This document shows, piece by piece, positions 4,496 through 55,463 of a stretch of 64,000 bases of DNA; position 1 is the stretch's first letter; every line of letters starts with the position of its first letter. The notes below the pieces were generated by a model. It was given only the letters and a program-made list of their open reading frames with translations, did not search any database and was not told the DNA's origin. The position numbers and the translations under genes are program-made. This DNA comes from Muricea muricata (Eukaryota; Cnidaria; Anthozoa; Malacalcyonacea; Plexauridae). The stretch is from NCBI GenBank assembly GCA_963855995.1, contig OY979717.1:8509501-8573500 (forward strand). The letters are read 5' to 3'.

Positions 4496-4518
4496 AGTGC
4501 TCAATACAATAGTAGAGC
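4496..4518 (-). repeat. conserved terminal hairpin of the hammerhead module
   Basis: On the minus strand GCTC-TAC-...-GTA-TTGAGC. It lies 30 bases from (TA)n tract 4 and 49 bases from the hammerhead at 4567-4627, the spacing shared by the other copies. Confidence 0.65.
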
Positions 4519-4566
4519 AAATAAGAATAAGATTAAAACAAACTTGAAATATTACATTTAGATTTT

Positions 4567-4627
4567 AATTCACTACAAATTTGTTTCGTATAACAGAGAG
4601 AACCCTGTTACACTCATCAGGTGAATT
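4567..4627 (-). ncRNA. hammerhead ribozyme motif with long stem II
   Basis: On the minus strand: stem I AATTCAC, core CTGATGA, stem II of nine pairs (GTGTAACAG with CTGTTATAC, one G-U pair), GAAA, a self-paired CAAATTTG as stem III, TA, and stem I return GTGAATT. All conserved core positions are present. It belongs to the same module as the terminal hairpin at 4496 and the (TA)n tract beyond it, but its stem II is longer than in the two motifs to its left. A decayed relative lies at 12438-12520. Confidence 0.82.
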
Positions 4628-4948
4628 TGAATATTAGCGCGTTTCGTTGCCTAGGATATACTATATACATGCATGTTAGACGTCACTACGCTGAGATTAA
4701 AAAGGTTATTTTACATTGTTATCTGTTACGAAACACTTATCAAGAGGAATTTATTCCGGTGTCTAAATTTAGATAAAACTTCGTTTCTAGAGTTCGGAGA
4801 GGCAAGTTTAGGGCGGCATGTTATAATATATTTCTCATGCAAACACAGATGGCATCGTTTGGTTTTGTTCGAATAGCTATTGCATCTTGCAAGTACCCTC
4901 CACTTAATTGAGTATTTTACATTCTTGTCGTTGAGATTCCAAACATGT

Positions 4949-5378
4949 TTAAGCTGATGTTACACGAGACGATTTGTAACGACGATTTTTAGCGATACGC
5001 TGATGCGCGAAAAATTGATACGTGTAACAGGTCAAGAAAAACGATTTTCGGATATGGCAACGCGTTGCGAGTTTTTGATCCAGCTTCAAAAACTCGCAAC
5101 GCAGAATGACGAATTTTCAGCAAGTTGATTCGTGTAACAGGTTCGTCGTCGATTTTTCGCCCAACGCCTTCCCAGAATGCAATGCTAGAAGTCATTGGAC
5201 GTAAACAACCAAGATATCGGGTGAATTCGCTAAAAATCGCTAAAAATTGACCTGTGTAACATGGTGATGTCGAAGTAGCGTTGCGCGAAAAAACGACTCG
5301 TGTAACATCTATTAAATATTGACAACACGTATCGCTAAAAATCGTCGTTGCAAATCGTCTCGTGTAACATCAGCTTAA
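4949..5378. mobile_element. MITE bordered by TTAA
   Basis: A 430-base non-coding element with about 48-base terminal inverted repeats (GCTGATGTTACACGAGACG at the left, its reverse complement at the right) and TTAA at both edges. Inside are more copies of the CGTGTAACA motif and an inner palindrome around 5060-5102. TTAA borders are typical of piggyBac and Kolobok-type transposons. The ORF at 4989-5195 is a by-product of the repeats. Confidence 0.75.
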
Positions 5379-5415
5379 ATTACTCAGTTCTGTGGCGTGC
5401 TTGTATTTCGCGTTT

Positions 5416-5475
5416 CGAAAAGAACTGGTGTGGCCGTTATATCTCGTCGTAAATTGGCACTCTGTATGTCCTACG
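5416..5475. repeat. dispersed repeat shared with 56998-57060
   Basis: The stretch starting AAGAACTGGTGTGGCCGTTA recurs close to identically at 56998-57060, just upstream of gene B. The bases preceding that second copy match 4520-4560, so a longer repeat was split here, probably by the MITE at 4949-5378 and other sequence. Confidence 0.7.
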
Positions 5476-5584
5476 TAAGTTTCTTGCTCGTTTGTGTCAT
5501 CTCTGGTAACTGTTGCCTGGTAAACCACGTTTGTTGTTGAGCATTTACCAGAGAGAGGGCAGGTATCTTACCGGCTTTCGGCAT

Positions 5585-51854: not shown

Positions 51855-53162
51855 GTGCAGCTTGGTGATGCTAGTGACAGAGCTGATGCTTGTGTTCAAA
51901 CAGGTTATGATAGTTTTACAGATCTAAACTTAAGGATTCAGAATATCGAAAGCAAACTCTTAAACAAAGTGAATTTCGTCATGGATGAACTCCTTGATTT
52001 GAAAAATCAAGCTATAAACAATGTTTATGAGCAGCGAATAAATATCCTTGAGGAAAGAAACCGTAAACTCGAGAGGGAAAACGAGACACTGAATGATAAA
52101 TTTATCGCCAGTTCATGTATAATCTCGGACTTAAATGCTAAAATTAAAGAACTGGAGAACCGCTCAATTCTTTTCAAAACGTCTGCAAAGCAAATACAAA
52201 AAATGTAAATGAGCAAGGAAGTTTAAAACGTAAGTATAAATCGAAAAAGCGTCAAACAGAAGAGTCAGTATCGAAACAAAATGATTCTACAATGTCGAAT
52301 TCAGATACTTTTCCGGTAAACAATAGATTTTCGATATTAAACGACTGGATGACCAAGAGCATTCTTTGGATACTAACAATGGGACACCTCATGGGAATGA
52401 AAGCAATCAATTTGAAAAAAGCAATGTCCAAACAGATCATAACATAGCGGGTGAGGTTCAAGACTGAATGCCCAAATAAATACTGTTGATGATGGTGCTA
52501 GTGAGCAAGTCTCACCCAATACACCCAGCAGGAAGCATAGAGTAACAGTCAAACCTTGTGTCGTCATGGTAGGAGATTCAATGATCAAGCACGTGGATCC
52601 TAAAAAATTATCTAAGAAGGTATATAAATACACCTATCCTGGAGAGACAGCTGAGAGTATATCAGCTAAAATGTCTACTCTCAATGCACAGATTCAACCA
52701 TCGCATGTAATTATCCACGTCGGAACTAATAACATCCCTATCGATTCTACAGAGGACTGTGCTCTTAAAATTGGGAATCTTGCCACTAATCTAAAAGAGA
52801 AGTTTCCCCATGCAAAGATTGCTGTATCCGGCGTAATCGAAAGGCAAGACATTCAAGTAGCAGGTAAAATCGAAGAAGTCAATAAAATATTGAAGCAAAA
52901 TTGCTTAAGTAACAGTGTGTCATTCATAGATAATCTTAGTATTGATAACTCTTGCCTAAATGGCAGTGGTATTCACTTAAGTGCGAAGGGAACAGCCATT
53001 CTAGCAACAAACTTTATTAAATTTTTAAGAGGTGATGGGCACTCCATGTCTAGTTCTCGAAATGAGGATTTTCACATATCAGCATTACAACAGCTACTAG
53101 GGAACTTTCTAAGAAGCATGACTACCTCCCCAGTGCCCAGGCACAATAGAGAAAAACGTTGA
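51855..53162 (+). pseudogene. LINE ORF1 with coiled coil and SGNH-esterase domain
   Basis: First part (51855-52208): heptad-rich coiled coil, [21 protein letters not shown] frame-shifted middle (52209-52565) with NNRFSILND follows. The last part (52566-53162) has VMVGDSMIKHVDPKKL, IIHVGTNNI and a late SGIHLSAKG, the Ser, Gly-Asn and His blocks of an SGNH hydrolase. CR1-type LINEs often carry this esterase in ORF1, where it is thought to act with lipids or membranes. The middle frameshift breaks the frame. Confidence 0.75.
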
Positions 53163-54907
53163 ATAATTCTAATTGTAGCTATTTACTAAATCCAAGGACT
53201 GAAAATGATGACCATTCATTGCATGCCATTGCAAAATCTAAAGGGTTAAAAATAGCTAGTTTAAACGTTAATGGCTTGCTCAAACACATAGATGAAATCC
53301 GGGTACTTCTTGAGAAGCATACCTTTGATATTCTGGCAATCAATGAATCAAAAATAGATAATAGTATACTCGATAACGAAATTCATGTAATAGGTTATGA
53401 TTTAATTCGGAATGATCGTAACAGATATGGGGGCGGTGTGGTTCTATACGTTCGAGATAACATACCATTCTCGGTAAGAAATGATTTAATCCCTAATCAC
53501 CTTGAAATGGTATGTATTGAAGTAAGTAGACCATATAACAAATCTTTTCTAATCAGTACATGGTACAGACCTCCAAATTCAAACCTAGACATATTTGACG
53601 AGTGTGCACTATTCTTAACTAAATGTGACAACGAAAATTGTGAGTTAATTATCATAGGAGATTTTAATTGTGACGTTGGGAAAAGCCCACCTGATCACCA
53701 AACACAGAAGTTACAGTTTATATGTAGCCTTTATCAAATTCATCAATTAATTACTGAGCCAACGAGAGTAACACCGACTTCAGCAACTGTAATTGATTTA
53801 ACTTTAACAAATAGATCCGAAAACATTTCAGAATCCGGTGTTATTCATCTTGGTATATCTGACCATAGCCTGGTCTATCTTGTAAGGAAATTTACTCCAC
53901 CAAAATCTAGAAAAACAGCCAGAGAAATCCGCAATTTCAAAAATTTTGTTAATGGTTAAACATCATCATCCAAAGAAATAGTGTGTGGAATTCCACCAGG
54001 CTCTATACTTGGCCCATTATTGTTTTTATTATACATAAATGATATGACCGATTGCCCAGAAAAAACAACTCCATATCTTTATACAGATGATGCAGAAATC
54101 TCGTCTTCTTCGGACAATTTTGATACTTTGATTGAAAATTTAAATTATGATTTAAACAACATCCGGAAGTGGCTTTCTAAAAATAAGCTTAAACATCATC
54201 CGACAAAATCAAAGGTTATGTTCGTTGGGTCATCACGTAACTTAAATAAGAAAGTTAAAGACAACTGTGTTCTATTAAATAATGCTCCAATTCCTCGAGC
54301 TGATACTTTTACATGTTTAGGGGTAGATTTGGACGAAAAATTGAGTTGGGAGAAACACATTGAAAAAATATGTGGCAAGGTCAGTGTAGGAATTGGGGCG
54401 ATGAGGCGTATAAAGCCCTTTGTCCCACCTGTCACCCTACAAACTATTTACAAAACATTGGTACAGCCGTATTTTGATTATTGTTCGCCTTTGTGGGATA
54501 ATTCCGGCAAACTACTCCAAGATAAATTACAAAAATTTCAAAATTGTGCAGCTAGGATTATCACTGGAGCCAGCTACGATGTTAGATCTGCTGATGTGCT
54601 CGACACCCTTGGGTGGGAGACACTTGATGCAAGACGATCGCGAAATAAATTGATACTAATGTACAAAATACTCAATGACCACACTGCCCCAAATCTAAAA
54701 GATCTATTCCGAAAAAAATATGTAACCCATCGGAATACACTTAATCTTCGAAATAGCGAAACAGATTTAATGCTAGCAAAACCTAAAACTGAATTTCTAA
54801 AGAGAACTTTCGGGTACCTTGGTGCTACTTTGTGGAATAATCTTCCACAAGAGCTTAAACTAGCTGAATCCGTTAGTTCATTTAAAAGGCAAATACAGCA
54901 AATATGA
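53159..54907 (+). pseudogene. LINE ORF2: AP-endonuclease joined to a truncated RT
   Basis: Residues 35-255: endonuclease with LKIASLNVNGLLKHIDEI, AINESKIDNS, STWYRPPNS, IIIGDFNCDVG and GISDHSLVY. After a TAA at 53957 the same frame continues at once with VCGIPPGSILGPLLFLLYIN (RT motif B), so the RT front with motif A is missing. The catalytic box reads LYTDDAEIS instead of YADD. The thumb and C-terminal end (LVQPYFDYCSPLWDNSG, TLWNNLPQELK) are intact. It cannot reverse transcribe. ORF1 and ORF2 overlap by four bases (TTGA region), as expected. Confidence 0.82.
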
Positions 54908-55174
54908 TTCATGTTCTGTCGCTGGATTTAGATCTCAGTTTTCAATGCTTTCCTTTCTTTTGTGTCTTTTTGCATATTATTCATTCTCTGTATATATCTT
55001 GGTTTATTTTCTGTAAATAGTATCATCATTTGTAAATAGTATTAGGCTTATTTTATATAACATTTTGTATTAGTGTGACGCCCCTCGTGGAAGCCAGCTA
55101 TATAGTTGACCGAGGCTAGCGTGGTAAAATAAAGTTTTACATACATACATACATACATACATACATCTACACAT

Positions 55175-55312
55175 GTATATATATATGTATATATATATAT
55201 ATATATATATATATATATATATATATATATATATATATATATATATATATATATATATATATATATATATATATATATATATATATATATATATATATAT
55301 ATATATATATAT
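55175..55312. repeat. (TA)n microsatellite 8
   Basis: TA run starting with TGTATATATATATG, following the LINE tail. Confidence 0.97.
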
Positions 55313-55346
55313 GTCGTGTGATAATTTCTCGTTTTCAAGAATAAAG

Positions 55347-55376
55347 AGTGCTCAATACAAGACACAATTGTAGAGC
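55347..55376 (-). repeat. conserved terminal hairpin of the hammerhead module
   Basis: On the minus strand GCTC-TACAA-...-TTGTA-TTGAGC; the inner stem is two pairs longer than in other copies, with both sides changed together. It lies 35 bases from (TA)n tract 8 and 45 from the hammerhead. Confidence 0.65.
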
Positions 55377-55420
55377 ATATGATAATAATAATAATTTAAT
55401 ACAATTTTTCAATTGAATAA

Positions 55421-55463
55421 GTTGCTACTTTAAGTTTCATGCAACAAGCAATCTTCAGGCAAC
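55421..55463 (-). ncRNA. hammerhead ribozyme motif, type I, minimal stem III
   Basis: Minus strand: GTTGC, CTGAAGA (fits CUGANGA), TGC/GCA stem II with a U-U base, GAAA, CTTAAAG, TA, GCAAC. Core intact. Confidence 0.8.

Follow-up and report, generated by a model that had tools for sequence, protein, structure and literature searches.

The window, as we call the whole 64,000-nt stretch of Muricea muricata DNA analysed here, carries ends of several element families lying against (TA)n tracts. An end that stops before a conserved hairpin is termed SHORT, and one that stops after it LONG. Near the left edge, a SHORT end of the CATAAT-hairpin family without hairpin (3679..3758, minus strand; hammerhead 3713-3758) adjoins TA at 3406-3678, and an F3 SHORT end (4032..4115, minus strand; hammerhead 4058-4100) adjoins TA at 3861-4031. 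The final 9 nt of the F3 end before the TA at 4116 are identical to the F1b LONG end; on its sequence, this is possibly a tiny F3/F1b hybrid. An F1b mini foldback, truncated within the tail (4158..4284), has a LONG end with a hairpin at 4193-4212 (minus strand) adjoining TA 4116-4157, and a SHORT end adjoining the TA at 4285. An F2 LONG end follows (4467..4627, minus strand), in which the hammerhead (4567-4627) and hairpin (4499-4518) lead into TA 4285-4466; no inverted partner was seen for it.

Three further copies lie to the right. The initial annotation had placed a single hammerhead at 12438; positions 12441-12499 are instead two inverted hammerhead halves of an F1a foldback (12441..12607) that is truncated in the hammerhead, with its hairpin at 12559-12578 (plus strand), its LONG end at TA 12608-12837 and a left border that is not TA. 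An F4 copy of a Penelope-like element (PLE; 49973..51434, plus strand) contains a reverse transcriptase (RT) ORF piece (50204-50974), an inverted RT piece (49973-50260, minus strand), a degenerate hammerhead (51285-51330) and a hairpin (51358-51381) before its LONG end. That hairpin had been listed as lacking (TA)n; the copy ends in TA after all, a short TATATATA at 51435-51442 (8 bp), while on its left lies a TA tract of 109 bp (49864-49972). An F5 foldback (55313..55853) has arms of 203 nt with 100% identity and TA on both sides (55176-55312 and 55854-55955). Its LONG end carries a hairpin (55350-55376) and a hammerhead (55421-55463), both on the minus strand, and its SHORT end a hammerhead at 55775-55817 (plus strand). 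This last, like those at 3713-3758 and 4058-4100, is a hammerhead-bearing end without hairpin that was not part of the module as first described. A paired stem change had been read at 55347; there (55350-55376) the inner part of the stem is two pairs longer. Clear paired changes (TAC/GTA to TGC/GCA or TGG/CCA) were found in hairpin families outside the window.

Order, spacing and hammerheads of the module

We found five exact hairpin copies in the window, where none is expected (100 shuffles). The genome (453 Mb) contains 835 hairpin matches (428 and 407 by strand), compared with 0 and 3 for the pattern read backwards. Counted on the forward strand alone, since reverse-strand figures count each place several times, (TA)7 lies 28-58 nt downstream of the hairpin in 354 cases (control 26) and upstream, in the opposite order, in 17 (control 16). 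The hammerhead motif CGAAAC lies 45-75 nt upstream in 183 + 161 = 344 cases genome-wide (control 0 + 0), so that many hairpins have no strict hammerhead there. With counts far above controls in this search for hairpins near TA and hammerheads, the proposal of a module with fixed order was confirmed.

Spacing was measured on one contig (C1), in the 30 hairpin loci that come first in its list. There, (TA)6 or longer occurred within 90 nt downstream in 25/30 and upstream in 2/30; random positions in the same loci had TA within 90 nt in 565/6000. A hammerhead-like core was present 20-140 nt upstream in 18 of the 30, and together with downstream TA in 16. The distance from hairpin to TA in this sample was 29-68 nt, compared with the 26-35 nt first suggested.

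Hammerheads were called by a core and stem pattern. An Rfam scan of the window gave no hammerhead match, either at the gathering threshold or with E up to 10, and a strict pattern scan matched solely 4567-4627. The minimal features of a type I hammerhead (CUGANGA and GAAA cores, three stems, an NUH site) are present, and many family copies fit them; genome-wide the pattern occurs 690 + 635 times (control 53 + 48). The predicted hammerheads may self-cleave. MicroRNA-like Rfam matches in the window were set aside, being mostly TA repeats and the foldback at 4213-4291.

Penelope-like termini and two-armed insertions

The module is the pLTR/tail end of PLEs, with two alternative ends, and the hairpin sits inside the known optional PLE "tail". 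A defined 3' end had been predicted and was found, but it belongs to a PLE terminus that stops before or after the hairpin, not to a separate element. The layout can be read at one locus outside the window, L058, where two termini enclose an ORF with RT motifs: hammerhead 2006, hairpin 2078, ATG 2213, PLE ORF, hammerhead 7799, hairpin 7871 and TA 8086. A pLTR over the ORF start and an optional tail are seen in this layout, and inverted pLTRs in the LONG/SHORT inverted ends described below. The L058 ORF had no Pfam RVT_1 match and no PDB match. Its relation to PLE RT is given by alignment to a PLE in the window (19682-21562; BLASTP E 4e-07, 21% over 576 aa) that scores above the Pfam cut-offs for both RVT_1 and GIY-YIG. 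At the C-terminus, where canonical PLEs carry their GIY-YIG endonuclease, residues 665-697 match GIY-YIG weakly (E 0.0015, 19.2 bits, cut-off 22.6), and in the alignment this region falls opposite the GIY-YIG of the window PLE. We had considered the 50204 ORF as a permuted Naiad-type PLE, a reading dropped in view of the C-terminal GIY-YIG match in the related L058 ORF. In a tblastn search with the L058 ORF, 17/22 measured foldbacks matched, 13 of these in both arms and pointing outward. The foldbacks are therefore not the small non-coding repeat units of retrozymes.

In the two-armed insertions, two inverted copies meet head to head between TA borders, usually with unlike ends; the minus/plus orientation of most pairs does not fit a model of direct (tandem-only) repeats. 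One LONG and one SHORT end were found in 27/32 (one scored by eye), and in 11/14 of the subset selected solely by hammerhead pairs. The 32 exclude duplicates (L020, L023, L024, L038), insertions with unreadable ends (L047, L054) and those with an arm absent, odd or tiny (L010, window 12441, window 4032, L022:1365-1446). The other combinations were LONG/LONG (L041, L053), SHORT/SHORT (L043 and the hybrid L059) and an end within the hairpin (L050). Six of seven F3 pairs were LONG/SHORT, the seventh joining a LONG end to one 3 nt inside the hairpin; three further same-family LONG/LONG pairs were identified by position. The SHORT arm extended further 5' in 17/21 orientable insertions (exceptions L046b, L058, L032, L018), a rule noticed post hoc. 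In the hybrid (L059:219-813), arms from two PLE families are joined in one insertion. Hybrid flags at L039, L046 and L056 proved false; for the family concerned, the family library contained a SHORT form only.

These arms could derive from a single initiation, if one cDNA (or antisense RNA) snapped back on itself and was copied. Arms are indeed often near-identical, at some centres the palindrome is near-perfect, with a gap of 9-40 nt, and arm lengths are coupled within an insertion (rank correlation, P 0.0006). However, in those same 17/21 insertions the hairpin is present in the shorter arm and missing from the longer one, and a copy cannot contain sequence absent from its template. The unlike ends contradict self-priming unless SHORT ends arose by later trimming at TAT, and the hybrid's arms belong to two families. 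We consider snap-back improbable, and the unlike ends and the hybrid favour priming from the two sides of a cut in a TA tract. Less probable still are assembly artefacts, or separate insertions that landed side by side in one TA tract and were afterwards rearranged or gene-converted. Adjacent and nested TA insertions are common in these loci, but one asymmetric layout recurs across many families and no TA tract is left between the arms; palindromes arising in reads would mirror both ends and flanks, and here both differ.

The TA tract and the proposed mechanism

Of the 11 TA tracts in the window, seven lie against a hammerhead-side end, one more adjoins the left edge of the 49973 element and three have no such end. 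TA tracts thus accompany the module, as first suggested. The (TA)n looks like an insertion target rather than an added tail, because TA also bounds the opposite side of insertions, single-ended ones included; the tracts may also have grown during or after insertion. Synthesis of (TA)n by the RT on a short UAUA template, in the manner of telomerase, would be in keeping with TA at both primed ends and with the view of PLE RTs as telomerase relatives (PMC3846280). It does not predict TA on the non-primed side of single-ended copies, the 109 bp on the left of the F4 copy against 8 bp at its primed end, or the three tracts without an element end, and we regard it as unlikely. Non-TA sites were the left end of window 12441 and one end each of L010 and L045. 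Target-site duplications, if any, are masked by the TA repeats.

We then return to priming within a cut tract, which, together with PLE termini, is the likely overall explanation. The hairpin, GCUC-UAC(loop)GUA-UU-GAGC, lying after the hammerhead in the 5' UTR, would provide the template RNA with its 3' tail, and may be a protein-bound site. Both strands of a (TA)n tract would be cut, and the TA-ending 3' ends would anneal to U/A-rich RNA, either immediately upstream of the hairpin (SHORT start) or 30-70 nt past it (LONG start). Each annealed end could prime a cDNA, on one RNA or two, and head-to-head joining would yield an inverted repeat, flanked by TA, both of whose arms contain a hammerhead. 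A more specific form, to which we give an even chance, has a complex with two template positions or two RNAs starting one cDNA on each side of the bulged hairpin from both strands of one cut. Its usual product would be an asymmetric head-to-head dimer, with self-complementary (TA)n as cut site and as primer for both strands. Outside support comes from the Anolis PAc protein, which cuts and extends both strands, starting at two adjacent sites (PMC11167929).

At the SHORT junction, the RNA and the TA run have 3-5 nt in common in 7/10 families, 2 nt in Fag and Fx and 1 nt in F3 (19 SHORT junctions tested, of which L046a, L055a and L055b were unplaced; L055b, by eye, had no TA overlap). F3, with just this 1 nt, is the sole family with a near-complete element here. 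In PAc, the start site and the cut DNA share no homology (PMC11167929), which we counted against the proposed mechanism. The PLE family is already known; the two-site end anatomy and the two-family hybrid are apparently new, found in none of the literature searched, of which coverage was partial. Two-ended PLE insertion would account for hammerheads and large palindromes within TA repeats of the Muricea genome.

Comparison with known systems

In LINE-1 twin priming, an inverted segment arises when the second strand of the target primes on the RNA; in Muricea, by contrast, the tail region serves both ends, and two-armed insertions are frequent in our sample. Metazoan non-LTR retrozymes share type I hammerheads in animal genomes but are small non-coding repeats of ~200-400 nt (PMC7229834), whereas the Muricea elements have PLE coding sequence and inverted ends.

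The Adineta vaga Pen families have in common with Muricea a pLTR at the ORF start, inverted pLTRs, palindromic junctions, an optional tail (31 bp) on one of two inverted pLTRs and AT-rich simple-sequence targets (PMC3846280). The Muricea tail differs in its conserved bulged hairpin, (TA)n borders and two-family hybrid, and the 8-10 bp target duplications of Pen are not visible in Muricea insertions. Self-priming on an antisense template was favoured for Adineta in 2013 (PMC3846280), whereas in 2024 Anolis Poseidon PAc was seen to cut and extend both DNA strands in vitro (PMC11167929). These differing models of PLE insertion can be told apart by two genomic facts, the asymmetric ends and the two-family hybrid, and the hairpin and two start sites can now be named as assay targets. 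PAc resembles the Muricea elements in its hammerhead at the ORF start, its stem-loop and its two adjacent RT start sites (PMC11167929). Its stem-loop, however, is AC-rich and lies inside the ORF, with starts not homologous to the target, whereas in Muricea the starts lie on either side of the hairpin and TAT is common to most SHORT sites and the target.

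A conserved hairpin between hammerhead and TA tract

The hairpin at the termini of these Penelope-like elements (PLEs) pairs GCUC with GAGC and UAC with GUA, with a UU bulge on the 3' side. The window (positions 8509501-8573500 of its contig) holds five exact copies, along with 11 TA tracts, the shortest 42 and the longest 273 bp. Across the 453-Mb assembly (74 contigs), the strict pattern was found 835 times, compared with 3 for the reversed control. We found TA downstream of the hairpin in 354 cases and upstream in 17 (genome, forward strand), and CGAAAC 45-75 nt upstream in 344 versus 0 in the control; the fixed order hammerhead-hairpin-TA, which the initial annotation had proposed, thus holds genome-wide.

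When nine hairpin variants were folded, seven gave the bulged form; in the other two the inner stem was poorer. Covariation was scored on 20 variants met during the analysis, which are not a census. Pairing was kept in every cell of the six tested positions, with one pair changed on both sides (in three sequences) and five invariant. This number of both-side pairs was matched by 271 of 500 shuffles, the cell count and score never; a register shifted by +3 scored 0.106, slightly above the 0.095 of the unshifted register. The pairing is therefore consistent, its support from covariation thin, and sequence conservation is dominant.

Inverted pairs with two end types

In the first 100 entries of the hammerhead listing, minus-then-plus neighbours were common. 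We fetched 20 regions which, being chosen for closely spaced hammerheads or hairpins, are not a random sample. Foldbacks in these regions have inverted arms of about 85 to 1,670 nt, each terminating in hammerhead, tail and TA, and the arms are 94-100% identical, L047 excepted. The closest relative of an arm was usually its partner (exceptions L040a and L055a). The ORF of L058, a region with an F3-family element, matched 17 of 22 measured inserts, 13 of them in both arms and directed outward. In L039 (3361-4482) a stretch of the RT region is duplicated in the longer arm, as though copying had involved a template jump. Another foldback, window 56212-56760, lies between TA at 56104-56211 and 56761-56885 and carries neither hammerhead nor hairpin; similar sequence adjoins TA in L021 and L031. 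A small inverted repeat at window 55956-56103 likewise has a TA tract on either side, without hammerhead or hairpin.

Each family has two end types: SHORT ends finish directly ahead of the hairpin and LONG ends run past it, mostly at an identical base across copies. Raw overlap lengths between TA run and RNA at the SHORT site are 3-5 nt for seven of the ten families measured, 2 nt in Fag and Fx and 1 nt in F3. Script typing of 32 two-arm, TA-bounded insertions gave 26 LONG/SHORT, 2 LONG/LONG and 4 SHORT/SHORT. On visual inspection L049 was retyped as LONG/SHORT, its hairpin having decayed, and L050 was seen to terminate within the hairpin; this brings LONG/SHORT to 27/32 (binomial 0.0001 against one half). 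Hairpin-picked loci are biased towards at least one LONG end; among picks made by hammerhead pair only (n=15, 14 typed), 11/14 were LONG/SHORT (0.057). Six of seven F3 pairs were LONG/SHORT, the seventh ending 3 nt inside the hairpin; four are shared with the 32 insertions and three lie outside the fetched regions. Three same-family minus/plus pairs within 8 kb were present among the 100 LONG ends listed, and LONG/LONG insertions therefore exist.

Arm lengths and a two-family hybrid

Arms were oriented by assigning the centre gap through a protein or family match, which was possible for 21 of the 27 LONG/SHORT insertions (left out: L014, L022, L048, L052a, L059:838, window 4158). Nine of the closest calls were rechecked against copies at other loci; eight were confirmed in this way, and L056 by eye. 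The SHORT arm was the longer one in 17/21 (0.007; exceptions L046b, L058, L032, L018), a post hoc rule first seen at 13/15. Where the longer arm lacks the hairpin that the shorter one bears, the latter cannot derive from the former by copying.

In one insertion, L059:219-813, two SHORT arms are joined, one from F3 (258 nt, 98.8%) and one from F1c (327 nt, 99.1%), about 10 nt apart with TA on both flanks, so two templates were needed. It was noticed because the F3 end had an unrelated hairpin nearby, part of a second foldback (838-1141), and it is uninformative on hybrid frequency. Weaker candidates are window 4032-4115 (second arm 9 nt) and L022:1365-1446 (about 20-25 nt).

For one PLE protein, cleavage and extension of both DNA strands from two adjacent starts has been published (PMC11167929). 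Together with the asymmetric arms and the two-family insertion, this makes two-sided cDNA priming at a cut TA tract, then head-to-head joining, the simplest reading: both sides of the cut would prime cDNA, the starts would flank the hairpin, and the two cDNAs would be joined. Arm lengths, tabulated by hand, were coupled (gap of at most 63 nt in 6/19 insertions versus 1.5 expected on reshuffling, P 0.002), which suits equally one shared RNA or two RTs stopping together.

Relation to known Penelope-like elements

Our open-access literature search, judged mostly from listings, turned up neither a conserved hairpin in the tail of TA-targeted PLEs nor two-family hybrids, and "twin priming" was absent from the papers listed (12 of 18 matches). 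The anatomy or the hybrid may have been described earlier, as the search missed the main PLE-hammerhead and permuted-PLE papers.

The window has coding pieces of several retroelements. A PLE-like region at 19682-21562 (minus strand) scores above Pfam cut-offs for RVT_1 and GIY-YIG; another at 16476-18498 (plus) has GIY-YIG-like letters, the tested part being without a Pfam match. The PLE copy at 49973-50974 has as its left end an inverted RT segment absent from its plus-strand reading frame. Pieces of non-LTR retrotransposon at 53150-54907 (plus) carry Exo_endo_phos and RVT_1 domains, and tandem repeats lie at 24190-24385 (19 bp units) and 14589-14783 (23 bp units).

The L058 ORF aligned with the PLE at window 19682-21562 over 576 aa (E 4e-07); its sole domain match, GIY-YIG, was below the Pfam threshold. 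In L058 a first module (hammerhead 2006, hairpin 2078-2101) precedes the ATG at 2213 and an ORF to 4168, and a second (hammerhead 7799, hairpin 7871-7894) is followed by TA from 8086. With a copy in front of and behind the ORF, the hammerhead-hairpin module is both 5' UTR and 3' terminus. Farther along the F3 5' UTR, downstream of the hairpin at 2101, L058 has a second hairpin-like stretch, GCTC..TTGAGCGCTCT. The LONG end of L058 lies about 190 nt beyond the hairpin, farther than in other copies, and 112 from a second hairpin-like match. The L058 module is placed as in those PLEs in which pLTR and tail extend over the start of the ORF.
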